A DNA stretch of 64,000 nucleotides from NCBI GenBank assembly GCA_034231615.1, contig CM067322.1, positions 60,321,245 to 60,385,244 of the forward strand. The letters are read 5' to 3'. The notes beneath the pieces were generated by a model. The model saw only the letters and a program-made list of their open reading frames with translations. It was not told the origin of the DNA and ran no database searches. This document shows positions 429-62,300 of the stretch, piece after piece; position 1 is the first letter of the stretch, and each line of letters starts with the position of its first letter. Position numbers and translations under genes: made by a program. Source of the DNA: Meghimatium bilineatum. Its lineage: Eukaryota; Mollusca; Gastropoda; Stylommatophora; Philomycidae.

Positions 429-572
429 AAAGTTGAATGTGTCAGGTCATTAACAAAAGTAAAATGGTGAAACTGCATATGTACTATACACTTATGTACA
501 GCATCCTACTGGAAATCTATTAGGACCATCCTCCTGCTACAAGAGATCCAGCAGGAGTTTGAAGGCGAGCAC
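429..572 (+). mobile_element. Short GAA-tail retroposon, subfamily A (diverged)
   Basis: Sense-orientation copy. It reads TTGAATGTGTCAGG near the start, TACTGGAAATCTATTAGGACC and TCCTGCTACAAGAGATCC across the hairpin, then GAGTTTGAAGGCGAGCA before an A-rich end. It matches the other subfamily A copies along its length with point changes. Confidence 0.75.
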
Positions 573-3862: not shown

Positions 3863-3876
3863 GTTTGTTTATTAGT

Positions 3877-3942
3877 ATTTGTTCTCAGATTTCCACCAGG
3901 ATCTCTCTTAAAGCAGGACAATGGTCCTAGTATATTTCCAGT
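3877..3942 (-). mobile_element. Short GAA-tail retroposon, subfamily A fragment
   Basis: Antisense 3' part only: TTGTTCTCAGATTTCCACC, then GCAGGACAATGGTCCTAG (palindrome core), then TTTCCAG. It lies tail to tail with the B copy just before it. Confidence 0.7.
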
Positions 3943-4479
3943 AAGGTGTAAATCAAAGAACATAGATGCATTATATTACTGTTTTATCTGATTCCAGCCC
4001 GGGAGACTTATACAAGTCAGTAAACCTTATATCTTCTGGCCCAAAAGACTCCTATAAGTCATACTCCAATTACATTCATGTTGATTTTTTCGGTATTTAT
4101 ATCAACATAAGAATGTTTCCAATCGAAAGTGTAATATGTCCACATTACTTCTTGTATGATTTGTATGTGTATTGATATCAATTTTAATAAGTTTTGATAA
4201 TGGTATGTGACGTAATTTTTCCTTATATGTTTTATATATATTTTCCAATTTACTTATTTTCGTAAAATAATAACTATTTTATTTACTTTGGTCTCATTTA
4301 TTATGAAATCCAACCTGGCAAATGCTTCTAGCATAGTGTTTGCAAATTTACGCCATTTTGTAAGAAAAATTAGCCATATTTTCATTTGAGTTTCGTGTAA
4401 AGTTAAGTCTACAGTTTTTGATAGATGTCGAAATTCTTTCTAAATAATAATTTTTTTAACGTTCTATGCATATATATAC

Positions 4480-4815: not shown

Positions 4816-5648
4816 TACATTATTGTGTTCGTAATTGGATTATCTACAGAAATGATACAGTTTGAGTAGAATTTATTGATTCAAAATGTGGTACGGTCAA
4901 ATATCATATCTAAAATAATATATATTTGTCATTTACATATTTTCTTTTCTAAAATAATTTTTATAAATTAAAATAATTTTTTTTTCAAAATGATCTTGTG
5001 ATAATCACATTCTCTGTCCATTTCTGTTTCGAAATATATATATTACATTATAATGTAAATATATTTAGAAGTACTATTTCTTGTTTCCGTAATGCATGTG
5101 CACACACACAAAATTTTTTAATTTAATTACGTTTAAACGCTAAAAATATTTTGAAATGACTTCAATGGTATCATATGTATTAAAAACTGTATGTATTCCT
5201 AAAAGATTTACATTACCCTTACCTCAACTAATTGTTGCACAGTATGTCACTTTATGTTTATAGACCTTGCGCACTGAGGGAATTGTGTCCATTCATTCAT
5301 AAATCATAACCTGTTAGAATCGAAGGGGTACTACATTGCATGAATAGGTCAATACATGCTCAAGTAATTTCTACCTTCAATGGTATGGATAAGTTCCTTC
5401 TCTGCTTCTTCCATCTTCAACAATCTCATGTCAGTATTATGGAGGAAATGGTATAGGATCCCAAATACCCCTACCCTCCTTAAGAAACTATAAAATTATC
5501 ATTAGTAACAAGAAAAACAAATGGTTAATTTTCTTTATCATTCCCACCCTCCTTTTAGCAGCTTTACCAATAAAAAATATCAAAAGTAATTAAGAAATGT
5601 CCAATCCCTTAATTAAAAAATCTATGACCTGCCCATCTGTGTATTTCT
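4816..5648. other. No gene seen; AT-rich spacer
   Basis: AT-rich sequence with ATATAT and CACACA short runs. No recognised feature. Confidence 0.4.
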
Positions 5649-5775
5649 GTGGGCCCAAAAAGGAAGCAAAGAATAGTAACACTTTTAGCTGCCATTCGTA
5701 TCCTAAGAGGTGACTAAGGAGGTTTTGAGGATGGAGTTAGCTTTCCTATCCTTTTGAAGGTCAAAGTGAAGAAAT
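5649..5775 (+). mobile_element. Short GAA-tail retroposon, subfamily B, 5' half
   Basis: Contains the 5' block of subfamily B: GTGGGCCC, AGCAAAGAATAGTAACA, then CTAAGAGGTGACTAAGGAGG and GGAGTTAGCT. The 3' half is not present. A 3'-deleted copy is unusual for a retroposon and suggests later deletion. Confidence 0.65.
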
Positions 5776-7763: not shown

Positions 7764-8164
7764 GTCACCTACATGTATTATACTTAAACCTCCTTAGTTG
7801 CCACATGCAGGGAATGTTGCACTGTGGCTATTATATGCTTCCCTTTCGACCAAGTCAATTAAATAATAACGCAAAGAAATAAATAATATATATTTGTGAC
7901 TTTGTTCTCGTTACTTTATTACATGTTACTTTTTTACGTTATTTTTAAAAAAAAATCTTATTCTTTCTTCATACACGTGTTCTTGCAGTTGTTTTACTTA
8001 TTTTTATTAGCTTTTCCCGCTATAGCTAATTCTCCTTTCAGCGCCATCCTGAAGTGTATTACCTCCAACTTTGAAATATAGTATAATATTCCAACTATAA
8101 TATTTATAGTATAGCACTTGTCTGGTTTGGACAAGTAACAAGACACAACTCATTCTAAAATTAT

Positions 8165-14500: not shown

Positions 14501-17500
14501 ATGTGTTGTCTCAATTTTATTTTGCGCCAGTAGACAGATTCCGGTCAAAGATGGCGAAGAGAACGTATATGTTCTCATATGGTCATAATCGGATGTTCCT
14601 CCTGAAAGCAATGGCAAACTACAGGAGAATGGTGCCAAGAATTTCCTTATGGATGTGTTGAAATTTTCATTTGGAAGAAAAATCAATGTTGGGAAAGACT
14701 GGCTTTTAAACACCATATTATCAATATTAAGATGCAGTGGTGCCTTGAAAGTGAAAACCTAGTATCATATCAAGCAGTCTTCACACTGCTACAGTACTGA
14801 AGATCAGGCAACCTACCTCTCCCAAGAGATTGAGGATGCCTTTCAAGATAAGAAACTGGTACTAGCAGCATGGATAGACCTCAGGGAAGCATTTGGCAAG
14901 GTTTGGAAAGTAGGACTTAAATAAATTGCGAAATTGCAGGGTTAACTCAAGAATGTACAAATGGGTAAAATCATATATGCATAATAGAAGAGCCAGGGTA
15001 CATTTGGATGGTCACAAGAGCAAAAAAGTCCTACTGCATCATGAAGTCCCCCAGGGATGATTCCTGTCACCCATACTTTTGTTGGTTTACATCAGTGGCC
15101 TAGTTGCCAAACTACCACATGGGATCAAAGTGGCAATGTATGCTAATGATCTAGTGCACGGAAGAACATGCAATAGTGGCCACTAAACAAATACAAAGAG
15201 CTATTGATGCCTTAACCCTATGGACAAATAGATGGTGCACCAGCATTAACACAGATAAGTGCAGCACTACACTCTTTACCCTCTCACCAAAACAAAAAGC
15301 CAGTGATATGAAGATAGATGGAGAACTTTCGAAAGATGACAGACAACTGAAAGATGATAAAAAACCTGCATACCTCAGACTTATTTTGGATGATAAGCTG
15401 ACATGGAAACAACACATAAACAAAGCAACAACAAAAGCCAGGAGGAAGTTAGCTATCCTGAGAATACTAAGTGGAACCACATGGGGAGCCAGTGGGAATA
15501 TACTCAGTAAAGTTTATCAGCAAAGCATAAGACTACACCTGGAATATGGTTCATCTGCATGGTGTCCTGCATCAAACACCACATTACAAGATCTAGATAA
15601 AGTACAAAAATCAGGTACTTAGGATAATGTTGGGAGCAATGAAATCAACACCCATAGGAGAGATGCAGAAAATGGGGAAAATGCAAACACTTTGCGAGTG
15701 CAGAGACACAAAGGTACTAATATACACAGAAAAGTTTCAGTGTATGCCAAGTCATCCAATGAAGGGAAAATTCTAAAATCTAGCAATGGGGCGACTGAAA
15801 AGAAACAGCTTTATCCACCAAGCTAAACGACTCCATAGACAACTTACAGACCTACCAGAAGTTGACAGCTCTTAAGGTCTGTACCAGAACAAACCCCTTG
15901 GAGTGAAAGGCATGAAGTACCAATATACATTCAGACCCACATGAAAGGAATACTAAGTAAGGACAAACAGTGTGCGGTGAAGGAGTCACCCCAGTTCCCT
16001 GGACTATGAATATCCACAAAACATATGAGTCCGAGTATACACAGATGGGTCAGCACAGAACGCAGCAGTGAGGAATGGAGGTGCAGGTGTATATATAGAA
16101 TATCCACACAAGTCTAGAGATGCGATCAGAACATCAACAGGGAAATTCTACAATAATTATGATGCAGAAATCCAGGCAATTAGGGTGGCAATTGAAAAAT
16201 TGTTGAACTCCAACCCTGACCCACAGCTGTGATATCCCTGACAGATGCAAGGTCAGTACTTCAAGCTCTCCAGTCTGGAAAACTAACAGATGTACCGCTA
16301 CATAAACTACTTAATGAACTATCTTAACAGTATAGGATAACTATGTAGTGGATACCCTCTCACTGTGAAATACCAGGAAATGAAAAAGCAGGCCAACAGG
16401 CTAAGGAAGGTGCTGTCAAAGATCAACCAGATGTACCAATTACCTACCATCATTAAAAAAAACAGATGATCAAGTCAATAAGAAAGCCACAAATACCACC
16501 ACAAGATTGCTATCTTTATTAACATTCTTTTGGAGAACATGTCAATATTCTGGTGTTTCTTCTTCAGCCTTCATTCTCAAACTCCCACTGGATTTTCCTT
16601 GTAGGAGGACCATGGTCCTACTAGATTCCAGTACAATGCAGTCCAGAGAATGAAAATGTGATGCATCACCATTTTATTTGCGCAGATGGCCTGACACATC
16701 CATCTTCAGCAAGATTCTGGTGTTTCAGCAGTGGTATATGTGGTACTAGTGGTTAATAAGTGAAGCATATCCTGTATAGAATATTGTTTTTGGCTGTTCA
16801 ATAATTTTTAGAACCAGAATATATGTTCAGTAGCATGGGTTCATGCAATGTAATAGACATGACTTCTACTCCCCTCAAGCTATGACAGAGTTTGTACAAG
16901 TTTGAATTGTTAAATTATCACACTAACCTTTTGATTCTGATAAGAATTTTATGTCATTTGGAAATCATTGTCTACATGTGGAATTCTAGCACACTGTTAA
17001 CTTAAAACAAAATCAAGGACGCAAATTAAGTATCGTCCACCGTGGGAATATTTGACCCACTTTCGAGGTATTCCCTATAAGAAATGTTTAATGGTTGTGA
17101 TGTCACGGTTCGCGAGGAGATTTGCTTGCTCAAGGTGAGGAATTGTGGCACATGGATTGCGCGAAAAAACAAGTTTATCCGCCAAGGAACGGTGACTAAG
17201 ATAAGTGTTCATTTTTGCCCATTTCACACTGTTTACATTTTTAATTATGCGACTACGAATTTTGCCGGATTTCCACTAGTAGAACAAATCAAATCCGCTA
17301 TCAAATCGATCTATCTCCCAAAAAACTGTCTGCCGCGCATACAATCATGTGGCAGTTGGCGGGAATCTCATGGTCTGCGTCGTTTTCATTGGTTGCCAGA
17401 TTGGTTTTCTCGCGAAACTCTGTGACGTCGCTATTTAAAACTGTAAACAGTGTGCTATTTATAGCACAACGGTGGATGATACTGAATTTTACCAAATCAA

Positions 17501-20500
17501 GAAAAGGCATAACATAGCATTACAAATTGAAAAAAATGAATCAACATATAAATAGAAAGGTGTGGACTTATCACTTATACTGATCAGCCTGACATTTTAG
17601 ACAATATGAGAGATACTATATATATTGTTATTTTTGTTGTTAACTCTCACATCAGCATTTCCTTTATATCTTCTTCAGCGTTCATTCTCAAACTCCTGTT
17701 GGATCTCTCCTGTAGCAGTACTACTAGATCTCCAGCAGGATGCAGTCCAGAGAATGGAAATGCGTTGTGTCGCCGTTTTATTTGCGCCAATGGCCCGACA
17801 CATCCGTCTTCGGCGGGATTTCCTTTATATAAAAATGAAGGAATTCTTCTGCGTTCATTCTCAAACTTCTGCAAATTAACAGAATGTAGTCATGAGAATG
17901 TAGTTTTTGTGTAATGTTTTACAGCTTTACTGCGATATCTGTGCCTTTCGGCCTGACACATCCGACTTCGGCATAACTTCTGAGAGATATAGGATAGGAG
18001 AGACAACTCTATCCCATATTTTCCTTAGTCACCTCTTATGACATACATGGAAGAGAAACAGTGTTGCTATTCTTTGCTCCCTATTCATGCCCATACAATA
18101 CACTGGCAATTAAGGAATTAATTTAACTATTCTTTCTTTGTAATATATCAACAGCCAAACCGCAGCTACAATATCAAGCTGTTAAATCCTCCAACAAATT
18201 ATTTCCTAATGCAAGCTGCAGGTTGTCGGAAAGGAGCTACCAATTCAGGTTAGAGTTCAGGGCTTTATTTCATACTTTTAACAACTTATATTAGTTAAAA
18301 TCTTGTTCAAATACAGTCATATAAGAAAACTCTGAAATCTGATGTGTCAGGCCATTGACGCAAATAAAATGGAGACACACACATTTTCCATTCTCTGGAC
18401 TACATCTTGCTGGAAATCTTGTAGGACTTTTGTTCTGCTATAAGAGAGATCCGGTGGGAGCTTGAGATCGAATGCCAACAAAAATTTAGGTAAACAATCA
18501 TTTCATATCAAATCTATTTTTACACTTTTGCCACACAAACAGTTTGTTATTTGTCAGGGTAAAGATGTTTCTAAGCTATTTATAAAGCAATTTTCTTTTT
18601 TGTTAAAAATATTCTGTTTACATATATAAATTTGGTAAAATTGCACTTGGGTTGACTTCATCTATCTCATACAAGGTTTTTCGTCATCATTTATATCTTG
18701 GGTAATTAGAGCTTCCATTTTAGAACTTAATTCCAGTATAGTAATTGTTCAGCATTGTCTTCTTCTGTGTTCAGCATCTGTGGTCATGTTATATTGTCAG
18801 GCCTGTTGTCAGAGCAAAGTCTACCGTCTTCTCCAGGCCAGAGTGGTTGCCCCATATCTTTTGCTTCAAGTCTGTATCCTCTGGCGAGGTCTGCTGTCTC
18901 TGCTCTTTGTATGTTGGGCAGTGCTGAAGTATGGGTTCCGGATCCACATGGACATTCATCTGTGTATGAGATCCTCAATCGGTAATAGTGAACCAACAGT
19001 CTGTAGTGGCCTGTTCTAAGGTGAAATGTTGTGGTCTGTTGATTGATATCTTTGGAGGTGATGTATTGCATCATGTTTGTATTCCACTTCCATTTGTTTC
19101 TTCCACTTTGCTCTGTATGTGTTCTGTTATAATTATTGTTTTTTCTTCTCTGTAAGACAGTGAGTGTCTGTGTTGCTTCATTTCACTTCCTGCTTTTGAC
19201 AGGGCATCCGCTTTCTAATTTCCCATGATTCCACAGTGTGATGGTATCCACTGAAGGGCGATAGCTGATGATTTTTTGATCTGTCTTAGCTCATGTTTGA
19301 TGTTGTGCAGAAGGTTTTCATTTCTGTTGCTCTGGATTGATTCCATTAGAGATATGCAATCTGTGAATATAGCTATCTTCTCTGGTCTTGGCAGTCCTGG
19401 TTTGGTGAAGACTTTCAGTGCTTGATAGACTGCAACTGCTTCTGCTCTAAAGTTAGAGGAATATTTCCCAGTTGGAAAAGCTTTTGATATTGTCTTCCTA
19501 TCTTTGAGTCTTATAAAAATTCCACTTCCTCCATTCCTTACTGCTCCTTCTGCCGATCCATCTGTGTAGACATGTATCCATTCCTTGGGATTGTATTTTA
19601 TTTCTATCATCCCTAGGTGTCAGTGCTTTTAGTTGAGGTGAAGTATGGTATTCCTTATGAATTATTCCAGGAATTAGTGTTATTATGGAGATGTTTTGGA
19701 GAATGTTGTCTGGCTCTTCATAATCCATTAGTGTTTCAATTTCATTTGGGAGGTTTGTGAGAATATCTTTATGTTGTTGATGGAGATGTGACAGAAGCTG
19801 GTTCTCTTCAGCCTGCATGTGATTGATCTAGAAATTTGCCATGCATCTGATGGTTTGGCATGCACTTAATTTTTTTTCCTTTGCACAAGCACTCTTTCTT
19901 CTCTTCTGTCATCCAGTGGGCGGATATTACATGTTTTTCCATTGCATAGATTGGAGTGGTTTTCATCCCTCCTGAGATAAGTTGAAGTTCTGAATTTTGT
20001 ACTTTAGATAGGCGATCAGTTTTTGATATTGATGCCCAGGCTGTCATTCCATATTCTACTACAGGTCTGACTGTACACATGTAGACTAATCGAAGACTAT
20101 TTCCATTTGCTTCCCAGCTTGTGCGTGCAAGTTTCTTCATCGAGGATAGTTTCCTGGTTGCTTTTTGCTCAATGGTTATTAGGTGTGGTTTCCAGGTGAG
20201 TCGCTTGTCTAGTTTGACCTCTAGATATGTAGGGTTCTCCACATGTGCTAATTCACTTCCATTTATTTTTAGATTTACTTTTTCTTGATGGTTTGAAAGT
20301 GAGAAGATAGTTGTCACAGTTTTGGAGAGGTTGATCTAGACTTCCCAGTCAGATGCCCATTCACTTAGGGTGTCAAGTGTGATCTGCATTCTGTTTTTTG
20401 CATTGGATAAGTTGCCTGCCACACTCTAGGCAGGAAAGTCATCTGCATGAAGGGCCTTTGAAATATGATGTGACAGTTTCTCTCCCATATCATTGATGAA

Positions 20501-23500
20501 TACTAGGAAGAGGGTAGGAGAAATCACTCCTCCTTGAGGCACTCCTTGTTGGAGAGTAACACGTTTGCTTAGTTTACCATCTACTTTTACTCTTGCAGTT
20601 TGGTAGCAGAAGAAATCTTTTGTCCAACTGAACATTCTTCCTTCAATTTTGTTTTGGAGAAGCTTGATGAGAACTCCATCTTTCCACACCTTATCGAAGT
20701 CCATAAAAGTTGACAGCACTTTTTCCTTGTTTCGAAAAGCATTTTTGATTCCCTGTGCTAGGTATATAAGCTGGTCTTCAGTGCTTCAAATTTTTCTATA
20801 GGCCGACTGTGTTTTGGTGAGCTTGTGGTTTTCCTCTAGGTATTTTATTAGTCTAGAGTTGACTATTCTCTCCAATGCTTTTCCTACGCAACTCAAGAGG
20901 CTGACTGATCATGCACATATGTCACATTCTCAGAAGTCCAACTCAAACATCTGGTCAAACATATACAGTAGGCCTATGCTCAGTAGTCTCTTGGTTCATT
21001 ATGGCTCATCTTGGCCACCTAGCATCAGTTGAAAACTCAGGGTAGCCAAATGCAAAAAGACCCAAAATTCAAGACTCAAAATCCAAAGTTAGGAACCATT
21101 TGGTTCCAACATGATCCCAAGAGAGCTTAAATTGCAAGAGAGCTATCTGACCTTTTCCCTACTATATATACACATTGTGTTCGCCTGCTTCTGGAATCTT
21201 CTTGGCTCTTTCTTTCTTCTAATTTATTTGATTCTCACAAATCATGTTATGTTTGTTACTAGTGACAGACAATTCTCGGACTCAATTTTTACATGGCTGT
21301 TCCACATTCTCAATCATGCATGTTTGGAAAGTATCCAGTTTTGACCTCTGTCAGGACCATGCGTGATCTCTATAGAATTTCTATAACTAAGCTTCCCCTC
21401 CTCAAGGATGGACATTGAATAACTTCCCTTTATTAAAACTGGTTACTGACCTTGAAGTAACTGCTGTTCCTCTGTATGTTCTAACAAATGTGACTTATTT
21501 TGTGGGCGTCAGAACTAGACAGTTGCTTCTAAGTTGACCTTTCCCATTTAATAGCTCCTACCATGAGTGAAGGTCAACATAACTGACCACTCTTATATCA
21601 TGGCCTTGAACAAAAAAGAAACATGCTGTCTTTTTTTTCAATTGTACCTGTGGCACAAGTATACTTCTGCACCAGTATAGTTATCAATCTACTCTTCTTC
21701 TTTACCCCCACCCAAATATTCCTATTACAATTTAAGTGAGGAAGAGTTGTGCAAAGCTCACTCTCTTGTTGAACCTCATTTGAAACCAGTGGCAAGATAA
21801 ATCAAGACTACTGGAAATGAAGTTCAATGCAGTGGATAACTGTAGTTTTCTATGTAACTCACCATGCTCTAAGCGGTCCACACTATGTTGCTGAAATTTG
21901 TCTTTTTGCCTAGTGTGCCGATATATTTATTGTACCTCATACAGATAAATTCCAAAAATCAGACTTTACATGTAATAGTTGATATGACCGTCATGTTTTT
22001 GGATACACACTCAATATGACATCACCAACTTTATGATCTATAAACAAAAATGCATGTTGTAAAGATTGACTAAGGAGGTTTGAGGGTGTAGTTGGCTGTC
22101 TAATTTGATAGAATGGCATTTATTCAAAAAAGCAATGTTAAGTTGGATGTGTCAGCCAGGAGGCACAGATATTGCAGTCAAGCTGTAAACCATGACACAT
22201 TTTGTTCTCCAGACTCCATATTGCTAATAAACAGGAATTTAAGAACAAATGTAATAAGAATAAAAATATACCTTCGTGTTCAGCTACCAGTTTCTAGGTC
22301 TACCACATAGATGTGGAACAGTATCTTGGTCAGCTCTAGCTGTCATTTCATGCAGAGTTATTTCAATAACTGCTGAAATACACACCCTAGGCATTGCTGT
22401 ATCATTAATTTTTAAAACCATTTGTTCATTCTCAAATTCATCCTCCTGTTAACAGGATGCACTCTGGTTAATGGAATTTGTTATGTTATGGTTTACAACT
22501 TGGCTACTATATATTTTGACACATTCAACTTCAGAATGACTTTTGAATCACTTTGATCTGTGGAATAACAGTTAATTCCACCCTCTAATCTCCCTAGGCA
22601 CCTCTTACAATATCCCGGACAGGTCACAGTGTTGCTATTATTTTCTCCCCATTTGGCCCTTCAATATATGTGCTGATCTCCTTAATTGTGCAGACAATGC
22701 AAACATGTATGCATGGTCATTTTTCTTACTAGTTCTGTTGAAGTAATTCATGAAGATTACCATGCATAATTAACTTTGTACTGTGGTTATTTATATTTTC
22801 AAACTAATTTTTTTCAGCTAAACAGGTTGCTGGAATAATTACACTAAAACATATTTATGAGATTGCAAAGATCAAGGGTCAGGATCCATCATTTGCATGC
22901 ATGACCTTGCAGCAAATTTGCAACTGCCTAATTGGAAATTGTCATTTTATTGGTATCAAGGTAATGTGTTTTTTTACAAAAAAAGAAAATATATTTCTCT
23001 TCTTTCTCCCCCCCCCCCCCCCTCCCTTGTGATGTTTGTTTCAATTACAAGAAATTATGTCATGTTATATTATGATTAAAAGGAAACTTATGTTTCCTTT
23101 TGTGCAATGTGAAAGTTTCTCCAGAACTGTATTTTATACCCAGAAGACTCAGCTTGCAGAGGAGGTATATTTTAGGAATATTGTCACTTTTCTACCTTTC
23201 CATAACATGCAGAGGTGGAGTCATGAGCTTCAGCCCCTCTTCCAAGTATCTATTCCTGTCAGAAGGGTCTGTAGAAACCCAGCCCTGGTCACTGGAATGA
23301 ATGGGGCAGCCAACTGTACATTCATTCCCCGTCATCCAAGAGGTTCTCCAGTTATGCAAGACTAACATGTTTTCCTGTTTATTGGCTCTCCCAGAGAATT
23401 GTCACATCCTGCACAGAGTTGCTTTTCACCACTCCCCATGTGCTTCCTGTTCATATCCAGGGCACCACATACACATTTGCATCTAGGACCATGGTTAAGA

Positions 23501-36303: not shown

Positions 36304-36467
36304 TTCTTCTTCTTCAGCGTTCATTCTCAAAGTCCCACTGGATCTCCTTTGTAGCAGGACCATGGTCCTACTAGATTTCCAGCAGGATGTAGTCCAGGGA
36401 ATGGAAATGCGTTGTGTCACCGTTTTATTTGCGCCAATGGCCAGACACATCCGTCTTCGGCGGAAAA
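36304..36467 (-). mobile_element. Short GAA-tail retroposon, subfamily A, best-preserved copy
   Basis: A 164-bp copy between 11-bp repeats AAATATGATTC (36293-36303 and 36468-36478). It runs TTCTTCTTCTTCAGCGTTCA, GTAGCAGGACCATGGTCCTA, CAGCAGGATGTAGTCCAGG, TTTTATTTGCGCCAATGG and CATCCGTCTTCGGCGG. It has the intact palindrome and a clean tail, so it is a good type copy. Confidence 0.92.
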
Positions 36468-36479: not shown

Positions 36480-37945
36480 GAAGGCTAAAATAGGGATCAG
36501 TGTTATCAAGGTTATGGTGACCTTCGACATGCAGCAATGAGTGCTTTTTCTGTATCTGCAAGTGATGGTGCTATCTGTCATAGATTATGGCCTCGGCCTA
36601 CTAACACAGTCACAAGTCGATAGATTGGAAAATTCCAAAATGAGGCAATAAGAGCGGTACTGAGGTGTACTAGAGATACACTCATCTCTGCTATGAGATT
36701 TCTGCTTGATCTCCCCAGTATTAGAGTGCGACATCAGGTAGCATAAGTTAGGTCGTACTTTAAAGTGACAGAATACAACCACCACCCATTACACCAACGT
36801 CTAGATGAGTCAAAGGGAAAACGAATCAAGCGTGGCAGATCATAGATGGCAGAGGCCGAAGACACACTACGAAGAGAATGTGAATTGGAAGAAATAGGAA
36901 AGGGTAGTGAATGGGTGGAGGTAGACACTGAGAATAAATCACTGACTAAAGTAATAATACAACTACAAAAAGCGTGTCGAAAAATAGACGCACGTCAGGG
37001 CTTAGGATACAGTACACGAACTCGCCCAACTACACTCGAAACCACAAGACATAATTATATACACATATGGCTCTTTTAACAGAAACACAAATAAAAGCGG
37101 TTGGGGTTTTGTTGCCTACAGAAACGGCGTGAAGTTGGTTGAGAACTCTTCTGCATATTCCACTGTCACATCGAGCATGAGGAGGGAGATAGAGGGAGTT
37201 ACAGCAGCTCTTAATTGGTTGATAACTGACACATCAACACACTCGGTAATACTCACAGACTCTCAAAGCATGTTGCGCAAGATAGAAACGTTCATTATAA
37301 GAAAAGAATGTTGGGACTTATTGAACAACTCAATTGTCCAGAGCATTACATGGATATACTGCCCTGGTCATGCTGGGGTCAGAGGAAACGAGAGAGCCGA
37401 CTTCTTGGCAGGTAATGCGGCGATAGACGGCACATTGCTGAGAAGAGATAAAGCAGACTTAATCAAGGCAGTAATAAATTCATTTCTTCTTCTTCTGCGT
37501 TCGTTCTCAAACTCCTGCAGATCAGCAGGATGTAGTCCGGAGAACGGAATGCGTTGTGTCATGGTATACAGCATTGTTGTGATATCTGCGCCTCTCAGCC
37601 TGACACATCCGACTTCAGCATGGCTTTGGGTCACTGACCCTATATGAGATGGCGCAGCCAACTCCATCCCATAACCTCCTTAGTCGCCTCGTACGACATG
37701 CATGGAAGGTAAACAGTGTTGCTATTCTTTGCTCCCCTTTCGGGCCCCGACAACACATGGGCGATAAATTCATTTCAAGATGCAGATGATGTCAATGAGG
37801 CTGAGAACGTACACATACAGAGAATGTTAGAAATGGGAGTATCTAGAGGTGAGGGAAGGAAAAGTAAAATTTTCTAAAGTCCCGAAGATCACACAATCAA
37901 CACCTGATCGGGACTCTGAGTCTACATACACTGGGATGGATGCTG
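36480..37945 (+). pseudogene. LINE: RT thumb, connection and RNase H, split by a retroposon
   Basis: VVLSVIDYGLGLLTQSQVDR, MRFLLDLPSIRVRHQV, a charged linker, then RNase H: TYGSFNRNTNKSGWGFVA (first Asp of TDGS lost to TYGS), SMRREIEGVTAALNWL, VILTDSQSMLRKIE, WIYCPGHAGVRGNERADFLA, then ADLIKAVINS. The subfamily B retroposon (37487-37763) cuts the frame here, which resumes with FQDADDVNEAENVHIQRMLE. It belongs to the same family as 49.3 kb. Confidence 0.88.
37487..37763 (-). mobile_element. Short GAA-tail retroposon, subfamily B, type copy
   Basis: A 277-bp insertion between identical 13-bp repeats ATAAATTCATTTC (37474-37486 and 37764-37776), so its ends are certain. Sense strand: GTTGTCGGGGCCCGAAAGGG at the 5' end, AATAGCAACACTG, GTCGTACGAGGCGACTAAGG, GATGGAGTTGGCTGCGCC, AAGTCGGATGTGTCAGGC, CATTCCGTTCTCCGGACTAC, CCTGCTGATCTGCAGG (short palindrome), then GAACGAACGC and a GAA-repeat tail. 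No tRNA A/B boxes were found by eye. Confidence 0.95.
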
Positions 37946-40181: not shown

Positions 40182-40310
40182 CGTTCGTTATCAAACTCAC
40201 ACCACGTCTCTCCTAATGCAGGACAATGGTCGTACAAGAGTTTCACCAGGATGTAGTCCAGATAACAAAAATGCGCTGCGCTAATGGCAGGACACATCTG
40301 ACTTCTGCGT
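40182..40310 (-). mobile_element. Short GAA-tail retroposon, subfamily A (diverged)
   Basis: TCGTTATCAAACTCACACC, TGCAGGACAATGGTCGTAC (hairpin), ACCAGGATGTAGTCCAGAT, GACACATCTGACTTCTGC. It lacks the TTTTATTTGCGCC block. Confidence 0.75.
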
Positions 40311-44235: not shown

Positions 44236-44749
44236 ATTGAATACCACATTAAGATCAGACTGGTCTACTATGACACACTTGCTGCTTTTTTGTTATAATT
44301 CTGGCAGGTCTTTGTGACAGTTTAACATGAACTTCACTTACTTGTGTAGACATGTTAAACTGCGAACGAGAAGAAGAAGAAGAAGCATGAACTTTGATCT
44401 GCCATATTTCTTGTGACTGCACTCTGACATAATTGATTGGCACGGTAGCAAAATGATAGTGAGCTCACCGTACAAACCCAACTGGTTGAATTAGGTGGTT
44501 CAACCGCTGACCCTCCATATTGTGCTGACGATACAATCAGATGTATTAGTGGTCCCTCAAAATTAAACAATAGTCTAATAGCAATGTCCTGTACAGGATA
44601 TACTTCAATTATTATTACTATGCACCCTGACATAATGGAATTGTTCATAGTTGAGGCTTTTATCTCCTCCCCATCCCAGAAAGTCCCTTTATCACCATAC
44701 TCACTAAGAGTTATGAAGATTTAAACCAGATTTAAAAAGACAGATTCTG

Positions 44750-46337: not shown

Positions 46338-46525
46338 TTTTTTTCTGCATTTGTTCTCAAACTATTGAAAATTAGCAAGATGTGATCCAGAGAATGTGTA
46401 GTCCATCGTGATTTATAGCTTGACCGATATCTGTACCTTTTGTCCTGACTTCAGCATGGATTCTGGGTCACTTTGACCCTCTATGTGATGGCCAAATCTT
46501 TTTAGTCACCTTGTATGTTTGTCTT
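46338..46525 (-). mobile_element. Short GAA-tail retroposon, subfamily B
   Basis: TTTCTGCATTTGTTCTCAAAC, AAGATGTGATCCAGAGAATG, GATATCTGTACCTTTTGTCC, TGACTTCAGCATGGATTCTG and TTTAGTCACCTTGTATG. It lacks the 5'-most block, cut at the junction with the following LINE. Confidence 0.8.
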
Positions 46526-47995: not shown

Positions 47996-48001
47996 GATTG
48001 A

Positions 48002-48062
48002 TGGCAGGCAACTATGTTGCTATTCTTTGCCTCCCGTTAAGGTCACAACAACACACAGGTGA
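48002..48062 (-). mobile_element. Short GAA-tail retroposon, subfamily B, 5' end fragment
   Basis: ATGGCAGGCAACTATGTTGC, TATTCTTTGCCTCCCGTTAA, GGTCACAACAACACACAGGT: the 5' end of B in reverse, directly abutting the end of the preceding LINE. The rest of the element is missing. Confidence 0.65.
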
Positions 48063-50320: not shown

Positions 50321-53300
50321 GTAAGTATATTATGTTTGTTTGTATCTCCAGGAATTAAATGCTTTTCTTTCATATATGCAATGAAGGGAAGGTTTCTACA
50401 GAACTTTCTGCAGGAGACTTCTACTCTTAAATTTCTGTTCTTTAGGTTTTTAAAATATGCAGAAATATACTGATTTCTTTCTTCCTGCATTACTGTTCAA
50501 ATTTTCTAATTAATATTATAGCTAAGGCCTGTAAAAAGGTCAGACTAAAATTGATTTAAAATTGTTTTAATGAATATCTAAGGTATGTTTTGATTTTTGT
50601 GCTTCTCATGTTATTCTTAAAATTAAAGGTTTCTTTTGTTTTACATGAATGACTCAATAAAGTGCCAAAGTGGAGTGATGCAGAATCTATTCTCCATTGT
50701 CTGATTAAGAAAGGAGTTCCAATTGATGATGTGTTAAGTGTTTCGATCAATTTAGTAATTTGAAAATATTTAAGAAAAAATATAAGAAGAATGAATTGTT
50801 ATATGTCAAAATATTTTGAAAGTATGAAACTTTAAAAGTATGGGCTGTCATTATGAAGTGTTAAAAGTTGGTTAATTCTACTTTACTGACAATACATGTG
50901 ATCATCCCATGTCCAATCTGTCCAATCCATGGACCTTTAGGACCATCATAGGGCTTATCAACCACCTGCAAATTCATAAACAAGAGCATCTAACTGAATT
51001 TCATCATCACAAATCCTAACACAAATCATCATCACTTGTGATGGATGAACTGGTTTTGTGCTCTGCTATTTTACACTTAAATTATATTTGCACCATTTAA
51101 AGTGGCACACTCATGTATGTTTTTTTAACTCTTATGCAATTGCATAGTCAACAACATTCCTTCTAAGCTGCAAGATCATGCACAAAATTTAACACTGTAA
51201 AATTTATAATTATGGACCTAAAAAGGTCCTCATGTACCACCTCAGGAATAATTTGTACACACAATTTTGTAGTTGCGCAAACTGCCATCTATTCATCACA
51301 CACAGTGAACATTTTTTAATAGGGAAGGGTAGATAGCCAAGCCATTGCCCAAACTTCTTTAGTTGCTTCTTTTATACCAGGTCGCATTATTAATATTTCA
51401 TTTTTTTTCCAAATTTGACTCTGATAACACACAAGCCATTTCATATTCTTTTAATGAAAATGATTAGTAAGAGGTGTAGTAATTATTATGTGTGTAAGGT
51501 TTAGAGATATCTATCCATACACATTATTAGTATGAGATATAGTAATTGTAATATGTGTGTAAGGTTTAGAGATATCTTTTTATGCACATCATTAGTAAAG
51601 GTGTAGTAATTGTAATGTGTGTACGGTTTAGAGATTATACTTAATTTTAAGACACTTAAGTTTTTTTTAGATTACACTGTCAAATATTTTGATTTCTTGA
51701 GAAATGAATGTGTATCTTCATATTAATTATTTTTTTTAGATGGGCCGAAACAAAATCAGGGAGGCCAAAAGATGATGGTAAGTTTTTTTTTCTCTTTCTC
51801 TCTCTATATGCAAACTAGTATTTTAATTAGTATGTAAACTAAGTATGTTAGTGTGTTAATACACTTTAGGGGTCTTTGTGATCTCTAATACGTTTTGGTT
51901 GTGCATCCTGATATAGCCTACTTGGACATTGTCCGCTGGGTGAAAGGGTTGCGCCTCTCCAAAGAAGATGTGAACTACCTCTATATACAAACATCTATAT
52001 GCAGTTATATCTATGTATGTCTATAGATACATATATATCTATATACATACTTAAAAAACAATGTTTGAAATTAACGTAGCTCAGAAAGCAATGATAACTC
52101 ACCAAACAGAAAATATGCATAGAGAATCTATATAGTCAAAATGTTGGTTGATTGCAACATTTTGAGCAGAACGTGAGACCAAATGTTTGTCTATTGTCTT
52201 TCCCCAGGTGGATGATGGTTTATATTATCCACACTTGCTGTTATGTGTAGGAGTGATAAACTGATATTTATATGAAAGGTCTGTTTGAAAAGTATCTGAC
52301 CTTTGGCAGAGAAAATTGCAGTTACTTAGAGACTTGAAACCCTTCACAACTGAATGTAGTCTGGATTGCATTATATCGTTTTAGTTTGGTTGGGATATCT
52401 ACACTTTTGGCTCAACATATTTTACTTCACTGTGCCATTCCTGAACTATTATTCTACTGTAGCATGAAATAGTCAATCCCACATCCAACTTTCCTTAGTG
52501 GTCTCTTGCGATGATAGGTTACAGCAAAAAGCACAGCTCAATGGATACCAAAATTGTACCATTGACAGTCGATTCATAGATATTTAAAAAAAGCTGGGAA
52601 AACCTCAGTGCACAGAAGTGGTGGGTTTTGCTGTTCGCATGAATCAAGACTGGTTTGACGAAAACGATGTACAGATCAAAGCTCTCCTGGACAACAGGCA
52701 CAACAGCACAAAGCTTATCTAAGCGACCCTACATCAATCAGCAAAAAAGACTGAAAACTCAAAGCAAACGCACAAAAATAACTAAAGAGGATACAAGACT
52801 CATGATTTAGTAGTCAAAGAAATACAGCATTACACTGACAGCAGTTATATGCAGAAATTCTATTCACCGCTAAAAGTAATCTATGGACTGTGTGTCAGGA
52901 CCATCACTGACAGGAAATTCTTCAGGACCATCACTGACAGGAAATTCTCAAACGCTGGGCTGAAATTTTTAAATGTACTAAACTACCCCTACTTCATCGA
53001 CGAAGCGATTGCGCACATCATGCAAAATACCTATCAATCATTCATTATCTTCTCTTGAGGAGGTGGAGAAAGCCATCTCAAACTTGTCCGTAGGAAAAGC
53101 GCCAGGTACAGACTACATTCCAGCAGAAGTTTACGTCGCCAGTGGCCCTGTTATGACTGCTAAACTCAAAGAGCTCTTCCAGACAATGTGGAACCTGGAA
53201 GCGATGCCACAAAACTTTAAGGATGCTTCCATCATGCATCTATACAAGACAAAAGGAAATTACCTAGCTTGCGACAACCACCCAGGCATATCCTTGCTTT

Positions 53301-56300
53301 GTATAGCAGGCAAGATCCTAGCTAGTGTGCTGTTAACCTCTAGGGCTCTGAATTAAAAATTAAGAAACATCCCCTTGGGCCTGAATCTTTTTTGGAAAAT
53401 TTGCGTTATTGATTGTGGGTGTTTTGAAAACGAGATAACTTTTTGTTTTAATAGATATCAAAATAATTTTTGCATATCTAAATAAAAGAGTGAATAGTGA
53501 ATATAGTCATGTTTTTTTTGTTGTTGTATGTATGATATGACAGTTGTGAGCAAGTTGTGAAGTTGAAAATTCAGGGAAAAAATTGCAAATCGCCATTTTC
53601 AAATCGCACATATAACTTTTTGACGAACCTAATACTTGAGCAATGTGTGGAAACATTGATAAAATCCTCATAAACACCTATACGTATTGTATATATATTG
53701 TTTTATATCAAAACTAATATAATATGAACTAAAAAAAACTAATAAAATGTGAAGAAATCACATATAACGTCCGTCCGGTCAACACTAGGTCTAGCCCGAC
53801 ACGCAGCGTAATTATTGTCTGTGCACACACTTGGCACCCCTGATACATATTATTTTTGTGTTTTTGAACGACTACACAAACATTCTTATCAAATAACAAC
53901 ATTAAACCCACAAAACAACAATTAAAACATGTAGTCACGATCACTGAGCTGTGTAACGAGGTACTCAATGTGATAGTAAAATATGGCTAGAAAATGGCCA
54001 ACGTCACTGTAGAAATTCGTTGACAAAACCATCCGGCTTTCTCTCTTCTTGCAATCGTAATGAGTAAAGGAATTTGACCTTTAAACTGTGACATATTCCT
54101 AGCTTCGTTTGGCGGGTTTTATACATCACGGGATAATCACTTCGTGAAGTTCCGTACTCTGGAATCGGGCGATGTCGTATGTAGCGGGATTGCGCCCGCA
54201 GGCACAATGTACCCTGTGCACATAGGCGCAATATTGCAACCGCAGAGTCGTAAAGGTTAAATAGGCTGCAAGCCCATCTTGAGACAGGTCTCTTCCCAGA
54301 GAGCTAATGTGGCTTCTGACAAGGCAGAGATACGGTTGACATGATAGTCACTCATACAACTACAGGAAAAGTTTTGTGAACAGAACATTGGTATCTACAT
54401 CACATTTGTCAACATAACTATGGCATTCAACACTGTAAATCTTTAAAAAATATGATTTCAAAACAGTCACCAACTATTACGTAACATTCCCAGAAATTAC
54501 ATAAATGTAAACACAGTGTTCTACAGGTTAAATAACCAGATTGGGTGTGTGAAAATTGCAGAAGAGTCGCTGCACATGCAGGAATATTGGGAATCATGAC
54601 TTATGTTGAGCTGAAGAGAGCAGGGAACAATGGAGTGACATAATGAGATGACTTCAACAAGTCTTTGGACTGACCAATCTAATGAATGAATAAACTACTG
54701 TTTGTGCTTTTTTTCTTATTTTTTCTGTCATCAGGTCACTTCAGAGATAGCTTCAATGATCTGTATGATGTTAAGATTCATTTCGTATCATCACTTCTTG
54801 TTTGGAAGTAGTTCTTGGAAGACTATTTTTCCCTTTCTTCTCTGCTGAATCAACATGCATGAAGGATGAAATTATCATTCCTATTTCACAATTTATAAGT
54901 GTTGATGTGTAAATTTCCTAATTTTGTAATAGTGTGTACTGTTATTTTGCATAAATTTATATTGATTTAATGTTGTATATTTAAAACACCAAAAGTGTAC
55001 CTACATATTATGTTCTTCTAATTTCAGCCTTTGGATGGAGCTGGTCCACAGGTAGGCAAATATCAAGTGTGATGGTTATAATCATCTGTCAGAAAATATT
55101 CAGTGGTATTTTTTCTAATAGTGATCAAGTCTAAGCATATGAATATTATTTGTGTACTGGAGTGGGTATTTTTTAAGCTGTTTGTATTTTTGTGTATGTG
55201 TTTGTTCTCAAACTCCCGCTGGATCTGTCTTGTAGCAGGACAATGATCCTACTAGGTTTGAGCAGGAAACAAAATATGTCCATAAAACAAAAATGCTTTG
55301 TGTTGCCATTTTATTTATGCCAATGGTCTAACACATCTGTCTTTGGTGGTGACAACTAATACATTCAGTGTTTTAAAATAGACCAGCTCTATGAGAGAAC
55401 TTGTTCTTATACTTACACGTTGAACACTAACTCAAAGCTAACCATGCATGCTTGATCTATTTTCAGCTGGCTTGTGTCGCTATCATCATAGCCTTGGTTG
55501 ATCATTGTTTTATATTGTAAGGTTTTTGTTCTGCTGGTCATGAAACAGGTCTGTCACATAATCTGCCCATCTTGTCAGTAGTTCTATCCTTTCAAATATA
55601 ATTTATCCACTCTTAATGCGGCCACCCCCCAATTATAGGACATTTCTTATTTGGATGTCTTATTTTGTTGTGCATTTCTTTAGTCTTCTGTTGTAGTGAT
55701 ATCTTCTATTTCTCTGCATTTTGTTTCTATTGTTATTTCACTATTCTGCACGTTATATATCTCTGTCTAAAGTGAATATTTTGGGGTATTTTTTAATTTT
55801 CTTTCTGACATTATCTCTAGCATGTCATCTGTCATCCATGTTTGTTCTTGGCTTTTCTTATTGGTAAATTTTCATTTGTTGTTTGAATGCTTTTCCTTAG
55901 ACTATTCCATTTATTATTTATTTTCTCTTCTGTATTGTTCCATGCATTTTATCATTTGGTGACCATATCTGTTCTTTACATCTATGTATTTTTACTTTAT
56001 ATCTGGTTGTTTCAGTGTTGATGTGTCTACCTGTGGATCTTACTTTCTTCTATGCTCTGTCTTTTAAAGTTTTGTATGAATTTTGCACAACGCTGGATTG
56101 TGGTCAGAATTGATATCATCTCCTGTGTATGTTTTAGTTTTCTTTATATTATTATATATTGCAAGTAGTGTTTAGAAGTAACTATAAAAGTTGAGGTTTT
56201 AAACAGTTTATTTGCAGAAGGGCGTACTTTCTACTTAACTGGTTTTTTTTTTTAGCTGCTTCACTGAGTTAAGGAGTTAAACGGTCATTAAAAAACTGAC

Positions 56301-59300
56301 AGTAAATTCTATCTTCTTTTAATGGAAATTTTAAATTTTGTGGAATAAATTGATTTTCTTAGTTGCATGGTGGTACACTGGTCAGTGTTTTTTGCTATTT
56401 TTTGCCAAGATGTATATTGACCATGATATGAAAAAAATCTGTTTTGACGAACTTTTAAAATGTATGTTACGGGTAGATTATTTTATTAATTTTCTTATTG
56501 CAAATCCTTGGTACATCAGTTGTACTAAATCTGTAGCATATTCCTCTGAGATACGACTCAAAGATAGTATTTTGTATTTCGTTTCACATGATCCATTGCG
56601 ATAGAATTTGTATAAACTAACATCCAGTAAAAAATGTTTAAAGAGGTTGCCAGATAAGGTTTATAAAAGTATATTCTGTATCTTAGCGGAAAGATGATCT
56701 TGCATGGAAAGTAGCAATGCAACATCAGATGTTGGAGCAGCAGGGACGGCAACAACACATGCACGGAGGGCCAGGAATACCATCAAACCATCAGGATGAT
56801 GACCTCATGAAGAAGGTTAGACAGCAACAACAATTGTTGGACATGGAGAAACAAAGAGAGGCACAGCAGAAGGTAAGATCTTTGACCTCAACATTTGAGA
56901 AATTATGTTTGTTTTAAAAAAAATGTTTGTATAGTGATTTTGTTGTTTCTTTTTGATCTTATGAAATCGATTCATTATATTACAAGTAGACACCACCACA
57001 TAGTTCATTTTTTAAATCCTAATTTTTAGATAGTCACAGAGCATGACAATTCACTGATATTCATTGTTCCAATAACAAACATGGCTGCTGCTACATAAAC
57101 ATGGCGGTTAACACTATGAGTCTCCACAGACACGCACAAAAATTGATTTTGTTTCTGCAAAGTAGTAAAATGCTACCAGTTAAGAAATTCTGTATTCTAC
57201 ATACTTTCTTCATGTTATGCACTGAGGGGAGGGTGGTCCCCTCTCAGTGCGTATCACAAAAAAGTAGCGATTGGCATTTGTTTATCTAGCGTTACGGAAG
57301 CACAATGAATTCGGTGGTGCTCTTAACATTGAACGACTTTGAGGAAGCTTGAATGGAGAAATAAGAAACATTCCATAGACCATCATGAAAGCTATCATGC
57401 AGAATTTATGTGGACATCAGGAACAGCACAGCATTTGACGCTATTCTCGTTGTTATGAAAGATTACTTGTCCCAATAGTGTTCCATTATTTCTGATTGTG
57501 TTCCTTCTATTATTTGGTGTTATGTTCCTTTGTATCATAGTTATGGTAAAGCTTCATTTCCGTCAATATTGCTGTGTTAAAAATGTGGTGCCGTTTACTT
57601 GTATTGTATCGAAATCTCAATACAAGAGTAACAAATGGAGTAATTAGACAAAATAACATAAAACACAAATTTAATTTAAATTTTCCATTTGCCTTCCTTT
57701 GTGACAAAGATTTACTAGATAGTTTGACATGCTCCAGAGGGACAGTGTTTACTTGAGAAAAAAAATGTAGCTGAAAATGACTTTAATTGTGAATAGCAAA
57801 TTTCTGTTCTATTCAATAGTTGATGGAACAGCAGCAGTTGGCATTGTTGGAGGCCCAGAGGGGAGAGCAACATCAAAGAATTCTATCCTCTGGTCAAGGT
57901 AAGAAGTGACACATTCATAACTATACTATTGTCATTGCCTGTATGTAATCAAGGACTAAATGGGGAGCAAAGAATAGTAACATTGCCACTTGCAATGCAT
58001 GTCATTCTTATGCCATTTTGACATTTCTTAGTATCTTAACGAAGGCTTGGGATTGGCTACCACACCCCATGCTTTCATCTGTTAGGGCATCTTATTTGCA
58101 TCATACATTTGATATTGCAAGAATATAAAGTACTCTCATTACCCAGCTCATGGCATTTTACTTACAACCACATTGTGTATGTAGTCTGAGACTTGCAAAA
58201 ACTCTGGAAAACTTTGCCATCAAAAAATAATATAAGATAAACACCAATGCGCGGAGCTAAAAGTAAAACTCCATAGGGAACAAGAGTGACAAATTGCTAA
58301 TCCACCAGGGTTCTATCTTCATCCTCTGTTGTTTGGGTCCACAGTCAGGAAGAATATTTATTCTTAAAATGTGGATTGTCTGTATAGCTGTTGAATTGAT
58401 TCATTTAATGTCCTTTATGCAATTGTGATTTTTTTTATTATTGTGTGTTATGTTTTGTTGTTAACTGTTAATTTAAGAAACTAGTTTTATTGTTGTTATG
58501 TTTGTCCAGAACTATCCCAAAATTTCATGATATATGTTGGTTGGTTGTGAATCCATTGGGCTCATGCCATTGTGTGATATATGTTTGCGAGCTGTTGTTT
58601 TGTTTCATATAAGATGTTCCATTTATCTGGCCTCGGAGGAAGAAACATTTCTGACCAGTGCTGAACATTCAATAGGGACAGTTTCGTAGAGATTCACCCT
58701 GAAGTGTGTTGTGGTTGTATTTTGTTTACTTGATTGTTGGTTGCTGATCCAGCGGTCCATGAGCTCATGCCCTTTGACCTAATGGCATTATATTTCTGGG
58801 AAGTAAACTTGATTGTTAAGACTGCCATCTTATGAGAATGAAGTCAAACCAAATATCAATAGGGGCATATAACAAAAGAATATCTGAACATAAAGTCAAA
58901 GGTAGACCACAAAAAATGGTGGGGAAAAAACATCACGATAGCCTTGAACAAACATGAACGCGACACAACAAAGGCAACACATCTGGCTTTGGAACGAAAA
59001 CTGAGGCTCCCACCCCTACACTTCATGGCAAGTGGGGATAATATAAATCATCACCCACCTAGGGATAGACAATAGACTGTAAAGCTGTACATGTTGTTGT
59101 CGTGTGCGAAGTCTGAAGGTAATGCTCATTTCCTTTCCAAGAGGTTGATGTTGTCTTTTGCATATGGGCTGATCATATATTTATAGATTTATTTCCAGTT
59201 TCCTATATTTCCTATGTTCATTGTTTATTCACAGATTTTAACTGAGCATGGTTGTTTGTGTGTGTGACTGCTCTTCTTTTGCTTTCTTCTTTGCTAGTCT

Positions 59301-62300
59301 ATCTGCCTTGTCATTGCCAGGTGTGTTTGAGTGGCCAGGAATCTACTGCATAACAATGCTGCCTTCATAAGATGTAAGCAGCTGATGATATATTTGATCT
59401 AACTCCGGCTTACAATGCCCATTGTATTCTAGTGCTTGAAGAGAAGACTTCATAAGTCTGTGTACAAATCAGTGTTTGAGACTTTTGATGGAAAGGGGTA
59501 AAATATGGTCTTCAGGTGGCTAAGGCAACTTCTAGTACTGTTATTTCAGCTTCATATAGAACATATCTACCCACAGGCATCAAACAACTCATTAGATGTT
59601 TTATCTGAATATTCTATATAGACTCCATGACCTGCTTTGATTGTAGTTTTGAAAGCTGACATACCAGTATATACATAAATTCACTCTTTTGTGTAGTTCA
59701 ATTTAAAATATGCTTGTAGTGGTAAAGATTTTGCTACTCTTTGCAGTTCTGGTCTTTGAGGTGATAGTTTTCTTTTATTTCATTGACATGGCTGAGGGCT
59801 GACTTTTTAAAATAAATTCTGTGGTTCATTTGCCAGTTTTCTACAAGTTGTGATATGTGTCAGATTATAGAATGATGACATTTCATAGTGACCATACAAT
59901 ACAAGATCTATATTTGACATGTTGCTTTGTTGAAATTGTCTTGTGATTTGTGCTGTACAGAAAGGCTCAACTTTACTGTAAACTGTGACACGGTGTAATG
60001 TCAGGGTGAACAAAGAAGAAGAGAGTAAGTACAATACTATAGATATATTAAAATACTAACAAGGGTGTACTAGGTGAGCTATTGCATGGATGAAACATAT
60101 CACATACAATTTTTACGGTACTGTACCAAATAAAGGGTCTACATATTTTCTCAAATCAGGAACGAAATATAGAAGCAAAAGTAAAAATAATAAAATTGTG
60201 TTCTTCCTGTTTTTATTAATTATTTTCCTGACGTTAAATACTAAACACGAACCAGTGTTTATTATTTACCCACCAGCTCAAAATGCTTTTCAGTTCCAGC
60301 GAATCCTTACTGTAGCATTGTAGGTTAAGATTATACTATGTCCCCCATGTATATCTTTGCATCTGGGAACACTCATTAATGGTAATAATGAATTTATCAG
60401 TCAAGCCACAATTACGACCGTCATTTTGTAACTAGGAATACAGCGGTAGAGCGAAGTCACAAATCACCAAAAATTTTGAATCAGCTCAGGTTTTTTACCA
60501 TGGCGATATTTTTTGACGAGTGTACTCTTTCCGTAAGTGCCCAATGTCGAAATATGTCACAGTGGACGTAGCCATTCGTAGTCATGGACAACAATCTCCC
60601 ATGTTAATTTCCAGTCATTCTTTTATAATATATATTAGAGTCATTTCCCTTTGTTTTTCTGTGGAAATATATACGCCTAGTGGTAATTTATTCGACCGTT
60701 TCATGTTTGCAAGCCGAAATGTATAGACCTAACTTCAGTTTTACCATTTTTCGCTATTTCTTCACGGATTATGATTCAGACCAAATTGATTTTTAAAGCT
60801 TTAGTGTTGCAGGTACTGTAGATAAACTACAGGATTTGAGAGGAATGTTAATATTTAATAGTGATATAACTAATTTTATTTACGATGAAGAATTGAGAAG
60901 CCGTGTTTTCTACAGCTAGGTCTACACAGGGCATTGACGCTGTAAGTTCTTTGTTGTATGTATTTGTCCACATTCTCAATTTCGGTTGAACAACAACATA
61001 ACACTGAGACACACAAGGAAACACCATATCCATCAAACACTTATCTCTATCGTCTCCGAATTTAAAATCAATAACTCAATAAAGTTATGCCAAAAAAGGA
61101 AGCACGTGCAGAAAAACCACTAGTCATAAAAAATGTCCATGTTCCAGAAGAAGTTGCATAATTTTTGTCTGAGTAGTTAGAAGTTAAAAAGTATAAATAT
61201 GTAGACCCTTATTTTAATATAGTATCATTTTTAAAATCAGTAAAATCAAGTATTATTCCACTTTTTACAAGAGAGAAAGCTTACTACATGTGAAATGAGA
61301 TGTCTAAGAAATGCAACAAATAGAACAAGAAGAGATCACGTGAGGAATGAGGAGATTAAAGAACTGTTGGAACAATATCTGTCAATATGGTAAATTATAT
61401 TGAAAAACAGACTGAAATGTTGCTGCCACTTAATGAGAATGAACCCTTATTGGCCAACGGCAATAGCATACACCATGAAAATGGAAACAGCAATATACAG
61501 AGAAAGACCATGAAAAGGGTGGATTAAAGGAGCTATCATTATTCTGAGATGTCACAATACTACTGCAAATCAAGGTACCAAATGTGCCATAGTCAGAAAA
61601 CCGATCACCATTCAGTCCAGTAATTTCTTACAGCAAAAACAGAGAAAAGACAATATATAGATATTCCTTTGTAAAACCATGCATATAGAGAAACAATGTC
61701 TATAGGGAACATAAGACCAATGTGTACGTAAGAAATACAATAGAAATGTATGCTGGTGTACAAGAACCACTACTTTCAATGGTGAAACGACAAAAACTAG
61801 CATGCTTTGGACATGTATGCAGACATAATTCCATGTCAAAAACAATACAGCAGGGAACTGTCGAAGGGGAAAGAAGCAGAGGAGGGCAAATAAAGGCATG
61901 TATAGACAACATCAAGGAATGGACAGGACAAGATATTTCTACACTCATCCGCATCACTGAGGATAGAATTCGCTGGAGGGCTCTGTGTGCTGAAGCATCC
62001 AATGTGGTACCCCTAAGACCCTGAAGGGTTATGGGTTGATTGATACAGAGAAGGACCAGTGTGCATATGTAAAAAATTAATGGGGTAAAACATAGGCAGG
62101 ATATAACTGCGTGATAAGAAGAAAGTCAACAACTGAATGGGTTGACTCATGTGTTACAGTGCCCGAAAGGGGAGCTGTAAATAGCAACGGTTAGTCATTA
62201 ATGCTTGTTGTAAGAGGCAACTAAGGAGGTTATAAGGTGAAGTTAGCTGTTCTATCCCATATTGGATCAAAGTGACCCAAGGCCATTTGCTGAAGTTGGA

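Follow-up and report, generated by a model that had tools for sequence, protein, structure and literature searches.

Two related families of short GAA-tailed retroposons with a common 3' module, probably mobilised by LINEs, in Meghimatium bilineatum

A 64,000-nucleotide stretch of the Meghimatium bilineatum genome (contig CM067322.1; hereafter the window) contains a LINE reading frame that is interrupted by a short element ending in GAA repeats. What kind of element is this, and how might it move? The insertion occupies positions 37487-37763. Its sense strand is the minus strand and its (GAA)n tail is at 37487. An earlier note on this DNA reported perfect 13-bp direct repeats at the ends, and the two flanking sequences are indeed identical (37474-37486 and 37764-37776). 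When the flanks are joined, the LINE frame runs on as ...AVINSFQDADDVNEAEN... until a stop codon. The same note described a 277-bp insertion splitting an RNase H frame. The length and the LINE frame are as described, but the cut is just past the RNase H domain; the RNase_H match covers residues 14-139 of 159 and the insertion, which we call a B element, lies just downstream of it.

We built profiles from copies of B, and of a shorter relative that we call A, and applied them to the window and to a 200-kb sample of the genome. The earlier note had listed 15 places and estimated about 20 copies of a single A/B family. All 15 places are profile matches of at least 60 bits. The merged places in the window number 21, of which 13 are B and 8 are A; together they cover 3486 bp (5.4% of the sequence). 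The original observation was somewhat understated. The six places beyond the list comprise one A match of 55 bits, one B match of 66 bits and a further four B remnants that are weak (19-27 bits). The copies are better described as two related families, with a 3' module common to both, than as one. All coordinates are in Table 1. When the profiles were run on the reversed window and sample, neither gave a match at E values up to 0.001. Raising the threshold to 1 on the reversed window gave no B matches and four A matches, with E values of 0.15-0.54. A and B copies adjoin one another twice in the window (17670-18107 and 3724-3989); insertions are possibly attracted by existing tails or by TTC/GAA sites.

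Table 1. A and B elements, LINE sequences and associated features in the window
Feature	Position	Strand	Evidence or remark
B element, full length 277 bp	37487..37763	-	98.2% identity to genome consensus
Target-site duplication, 13 bp, tail side of B	37474..37486	.	flank comparison
Target-site duplication, 13 bp, 5' side of B	37764..37776	.	flank comparison
LINE ORF with RNase H domain, target of B insertion	37006..37482	+	Pfam PF00075 E 8.3e-19; frame runs on across joined flanks
B element	17844..18107	-	83% to consensus, 8-bp flank repeat
B element	62147..62413	+	85% to consensus; tail (GAA)4; by eye, 11-bp TSD, one mismatch
B element, old	12731..13008	+	7-bp flank repeat, chance level
B element, old	22050..22252	+	profile match
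B element, old	22424..22659	-	profile match
B element, partial	46341..46495	-	profile match
B element, 5' truncated, 3' module only	3724..3860	+	8-bp exact flank repeat
B 5' half	5632..5763	+	66 bits
B remnant	52347..52511	-	19 bits
B 5' remnant	7787..7849	-	27 bits
B 5' remnant	57937..58069	+	27 bits
B 5' remnant	48001..48059	-	24 bits
A element, (GAA)5 tail	36304..36467	-	11-bp TSD
A element	16560..16713	-	13-bp TSD; abuts end of LINE match 14787-16567
A element	17670..17817	-	13-bp TSD
A element	18331..18476	+	profile match
A element, old	426..571	+	profile match
A element, old	40182..40309	-	profile match
A element, old	55199..55349	-	profile match
A element, absent from the earlier note's list	3875..3989	-	55 bits
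Putative helper-type LINE copy (RT, RNase H)	18801..20905	-	after stop ends GATGCTGAACACAGAAGAAG
Other copy, same broad LINE group	14787..16567	+	no GAA tail found 3' of match
LINE-like 3' end, GTAGACATGTTAAACTGCGAACGA + (GAA)5	44343..44384	+	89% like LINE 3' end in L035

We then turned to the whole genome (1.61 Gb, 32 contigs). With the 277-bp B query, the best 40 of 2241 first-look candidates each cover at least 269 bp at 94-100% identity, the 100% match being the window copy itself. With the 164-bp A query, the best 40 of 2566 candidates each cover at least 155 bp at 93-100% identity. Since the best matches were scored, these figures are biased toward young full-length copies. The best copies differ from their consensus by 3.3% on average in B (n=21) and by 3.1% in A (n=13). 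The 200-kb sample, which consists of 20 stretches of 10 kb taken at round coordinates on 13 contigs, contains 55 places (37 B and 18 A) that together cover 8507 bp, or 4.3%, and occupy 16 of the 20 stretches. Extrapolation from this sample to 1.61 Gb gives a rough genome total of 440,000 A and B places. Many copies in the window and the sample are at 75-90% identity. Thus, activity has been long and has lasted until recently.

Both families have fixed ends. B is 277 bp long and A about 151 bp plus its tail; judged by these lengths, neither has coding capacity. B copies begin (C)GCCC[A/G]TGTGTTG (start string CGCCC...) and A copies begin TTTCCGCCGAAGACGG (start string TTTCCGCC...). The 3' end, which is common to A and B, is also fixed and reads GAACGC[A/T] followed by (GAA)n, with variants. 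Young copies are frequently flanked by target-site duplications (TSDs). At least 10 identical flank bases were found for 14 of 20 young B copies, compared with 0 of 380 mismatched flank pairs. The equivalent counts for young A copies were 5 of 12 and 0 of 132. No exact duplication of at least 10 bp was seen for the other 6 B and 7 A copies. Mismatched flank pairs reach a maximum of 9 bp for A, and lengths of 7-9 bp fall in the chance range for both families. Most TSDs abut the element, but not all do: one of the 14 B cases (L026) is inside a tandem repeat, the B repeat at L019 is 6 bp off the 5' end, and one of the 5 A repeats (L061) is separated from the element. The exact flank repeats in the window measure 13 bp (at 37487, 16566 and 17677), 11 bp (36316), 8 bp (17844 and 3724) and 7 bp (12731). 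Among window and sample matches of at least 60 bits, a repeat of at least 10 bp accompanies 5 of 29 copies for B and 8 of 23 for A; low counts are expected here because most of these copies are old.

The flanks and tails also bear on the mode of insertion. Ten of 12 A flank repeats begin with AA or GAA, as would be expected if the nicked target annealed to the GAA tail. Some B copies are 5' truncated (L037, L029:4871 and window 3724), which target-primed reverse transcription (TPRT) predicts. The earlier note took the GAA tails and duplications as signs of target-primed retroposition, and the fixed ends and TSDs of the young copies agree. We also scored tracts of three or more GAA units throughout 264 kb. 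The motif GAA[CT]G occurs within the preceding 12 nt in 24 of 39 tracts, compared with 788 of 43,986 background 12-mers (1.8%). Sixteen of these 24 tracts are at A or B matches; away from such matches the motif precedes 8 of 18. The 15 tracts that lack the motif count against mobilisation of A and B by LINEs. At L044:5132-5260 a B-like left half (~102 bp) enters a GAA-rich tail of its own, i.e. it is a B without the 3' module.

The 3' module contains a hairpin of ~55 nt in B and ~85 nt in A. In an alignment of 37 copies, 88.4% of the cells in the stem near the 3' end are paired, compared with 38-45% when the partners are slid. Cells with changes in both partners number 29, versus 12.1 in shuffled alignments, and none of 500 shuffles reached 29. 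The strongest covarying pair is G-C in 15 sequences and A-U in 15, which is largely a difference between B and A. Two further measures are less clear: eight pairs changed on both sides (equalled by 26 of 500 shuffles) and 21 further pair types (equalled by 61 of 500). Support for the hairpin is therefore carried by few pairs. For this alignment RNAalifold gives a weak consensus energy (-1.83 kcal/mol), perhaps because of an insert in the A loop. When LINE 3' ends of the same genome were folded, the A/B hairpin was not clearly present.

The earlier note suggested comparing the 3' end of the elements with those of LINEs in the same genome. LINE copies in the window and sample were recognised by RT or RNase H similarity; in many of them the 3'UTR is very short and ends as A and B do. 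We inspected 10 LINE ends for a GAA tail. Seven have an A/B-like end with such a tail (L032, L047, L036, L004, L035, L029 and the window copy at 18.8 kb), and this points to a likely helper group; the L029 end is LINE-like by eye only, with no tblastn match. The tail was absent from the other three (L046, L035 at 5.5 kb and the window copy at 16.7 kb). Examples are GATGCTGAACGCA-(GAA)n in L047, GAAGAACGAT-(GAA)n in L032 and GTGAACGAAA-(GAA)n in L036. Other LINE families of the genome have the tail GCTGAACGCA-(GAA)n. The end common to A, B and the LINEs is ~14-18 nt including the repeats and is not always identical, and GAA repeats alone could have other origins. These points, the three ends without a tail and the lack of a clear A/B hairpin in the folded LINE ends count against a helper role for these LINEs.

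One LINE was followed through the genome. Two full-length copies share 99.6% identity along 4654 bp, and the single open frame of 1300 codons has endonuclease (EN), RT and RNase H matches in Pfam. The 3'UTR is very short and ends GAACG...(GAA)n. By eye, the full-length copies have TSDs of 9 and 11 bp and a GAA tail. All 57 scored matches, from 133,547 first-look candidates, are at 96-100% protein identity. On sequence grounds this LINE looks as an active helper should, and it may mobilise A and B. Neither the A nor the B profile has a significant match in the full-length element (best E 0.33), and the tails of L047-type LINEs resemble A and B better than does the tail of the followed LINE. Some young B copies (2 of 20 fetched) are inside the last codons of L032-like LINEs (L006/L013 and L007/L014; by eye, and by tblastn for L007). 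The B tail resembles the tail of this LINE family, which hosts the two insertions. The window also has non-LTR RT ORFs at 46789-47769 and 38853-39461 (Pfam RVT_1, E 2.5e-37 and 6.2e-25), in neither of which Pfam finds an RNase H domain.

We consider it very likely that A and B are short, non-autonomous, LINE-mobilised non-LTR retroposons with a shared 3' module. The sequence of events may be as follows. RNAs of A and B would carry the common 3' module, which comprises the hairpin and then GAACGC plus GAA repeats. This 3' end would probably be recognised by the enzyme that the genome's RNase-H LINEs encode. That enzyme would nick the target, often at a site that starts with (G)AA next to the tail. 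Reverse transcription would be primed on the GAA repeat, and insertion would leave duplications of roughly 8-15 bp. The module itself may stem from a LINE with an internal deletion (a weak case, and for B only), with addition of a separate 5' half giving B. We infer that the enzyme recognises the module and that the LINEs act as helpers; the ends, duplications, tails, hairpin covariation and young LINEs with similar 3' ends are observed directly.

The source of the RNA is not explained by this reading, since no promoter was found, and this counts against it. The earlier note saw no tRNA-type A and B boxes and proposed a scan for Pol III promoters and for tRNA, 5S and 7SL similarity. We searched for an A box in the first 60 nt and a B box 25-74 nt further on; 718 and 716 of 1000 shuffles were as good, compared with 0 of 1000 for a tRNA control. 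The boxes are thus at chance level, in agreement with the note. The whole window has no Rfam match at the gathering threshold and no tRNA according to ARAGORN. At E values up to 10, the A and B loci have four sub-threshold Rfam matches of unrelated kinds (E 3.8-7.9). Two of these overlap elements (mir-4435 at one end of the A copy at 36304 and Yar_1 in the B copy at 62147). We take all four to be chance matches. The two halves of B may be compared with each other as in an Alu-like dimer: 1, 4 and 5 of 1000 shuffles were as good under three scoring schemes, and 123 of 1000 under a stricter one.

Alternatively, A and B could be short internally deleted LINEs of the SIDE/RIME kind, in which the end of a LINE 5'UTR is joined to the 3' end and B has an extra 5' half. 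We regard this as possible, though tentatively so. B 131-217 aligns with LINE 628-722, a stretch immediately before the first ATG of the LINE ORF. Scores as high were reached by 2 of 400 shuffles, and this region ranks first along the LINE for the middle of B. BLAST gave an E value of 0.004 in the permissive scan where the region was first noticed. The 3' ends are also alike. Conversely, neither A nor the left half of B aligns significantly with the followed LINE (57 and 64 of 400 shuffles as good, respectively), and neither profile is significant in it; the 5'UTR compared is that of one LINE family. LINE ancestry of the 3' module, as judged from these alignments, is a weak lead.

It is more doubtful that A and B are ordinary SINEs in which a tRNA head has decayed or been lost and a conserved central domain, such as Meta, has been kept. 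A conserved core of ~24 nt, GCATGTCGTAAGAGGCGACTAAGGA, lies in the left half of B. Searched without its first base, this core turns up at 25 sites in 264 kb when up to five substitutions are allowed, and at none in the reversed control. The core is also found at two loci that are otherwise not B-like (L035:2601 and L040:5558). It may be one of the conserved SINE domains reported from animals, molluscs among them (PMC10294476, PMC8010984); V, Meta, MIR, Deu and Core SINEs are reported from bivalve molluscs (PMC10294476). However, young copies, at a mean of 3.3% from the consensus, have neither A and B boxes nor a tRNA match. A search of literature text for six spelled-out strings of the core gave no match. 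We had suspected a tRNA-like B box by eye at the L035 and L040 loci, but this was not supported, as neither has a tRNA match. At L040:5463-5550 the B core is present as an inverted pair that could form a long hairpin (by eye), with weak microRNA-like matches.

The fixed 5' end and the failure to find a promoter would also suit a self-cleaving ribozyme that cuts a precise 5' end in a co-transcript. HDV-like ribozymes that free RNAs from co-transcripts are reported for L1Tc/ingi elements (PMC4035085). We think this very unlikely for A and B; no Rfam ribozyme family matches A, B or the LINE 5' end at E values up to 10. Derivation of the copies from a single longer LINE, LTR or DNA element by fragmentation is extremely unlikely. 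Partial copies do occur, as 5'-only remnants at 5632, 7787, 57937 and 48001, but young TSD-flanked copies have fixed 5' and 3' ends, pairwise alignments within the window stop at the same element boundaries, and the full-length LINE contains nothing that matches significantly.

Family C, a longer repeat, is represented by L030:7951-8321 (+) and L033:3420-3796 (-), which are 79% identical over 382 aligned columns. Like A and B, family C ends in GAACGCAGAAGAAGAA. Its upstream part recurs without the shared end in L036 and L039. The C module resembles that of B: none of 300 shuffles was as good, and this was also so after removal of the last 18 nt. Kinship of the C and A modules is not supported (17 of 300 shuffles as good, and 148 of 300 after the same removal). 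It is conceivable, but rather unlikely, that A, B and C constitute a guild without a Pol III head, whose members share a 3' RNA module that was at first a LINE with an internal deletion, exchange 5' parts and are all moved by one LINE group. Exact-pattern scans of viral contigs and genome contigs for homologues elsewhere found none. A separate 600-bp repeat occurs in opposite orientations at window positions 1846-2434 and 49562-50162 (90% identical), with fragments at 58731-58804 and 63059-63200.

Elements present in roughly 440,000 extrapolated copies shape the genome and can lead its annotation astray. Should LINEs recognise the module as a signal, the young intact LINE and the young A and B copies would be a good test case for how headless short elements are transcribed and recruited. 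Were the guild arrangement true, it would be direct evidence for LINEs as the source of SINE bodies, on an extrapolated scale of roughly four hundred thousand copies.

Three known systems offer comparisons. Stringent SINE/LINE pairs have a LINE-derived tail and stem-loops (PMC3747384). Similarly, A and B are short, abundant and flanked by TSDs, with a LINE-like 3' end and a conserved 3' hairpin. Unlike these pairs, A and B have no tRNA, 5S or 7SL head and no A and B boxes that we could find, and the LINE-like end is ~14-18 nt. Persaeus is a SIDE derived from the CR1 element Zenon in Lepidoptera (PMC6740152). With Persaeus, and with SIDER/RIME-type elements of the ingi clade, A and B share non-autonomous TPRT, a lack of any small-RNA head and a possible structure of LINE 5'UTR joined to 3' end. 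In contrast to SIDEs, LINE derivation of A and B is weakly supported, and the 5' half of B has no LINE match. Finally, SINE superfamilies with conserved central domains include Meta, V, Nin, Snail and others (PMC8010984). The ~24-nt core of B, which also occurs at loci with other flanks, may be comparable to such domains.
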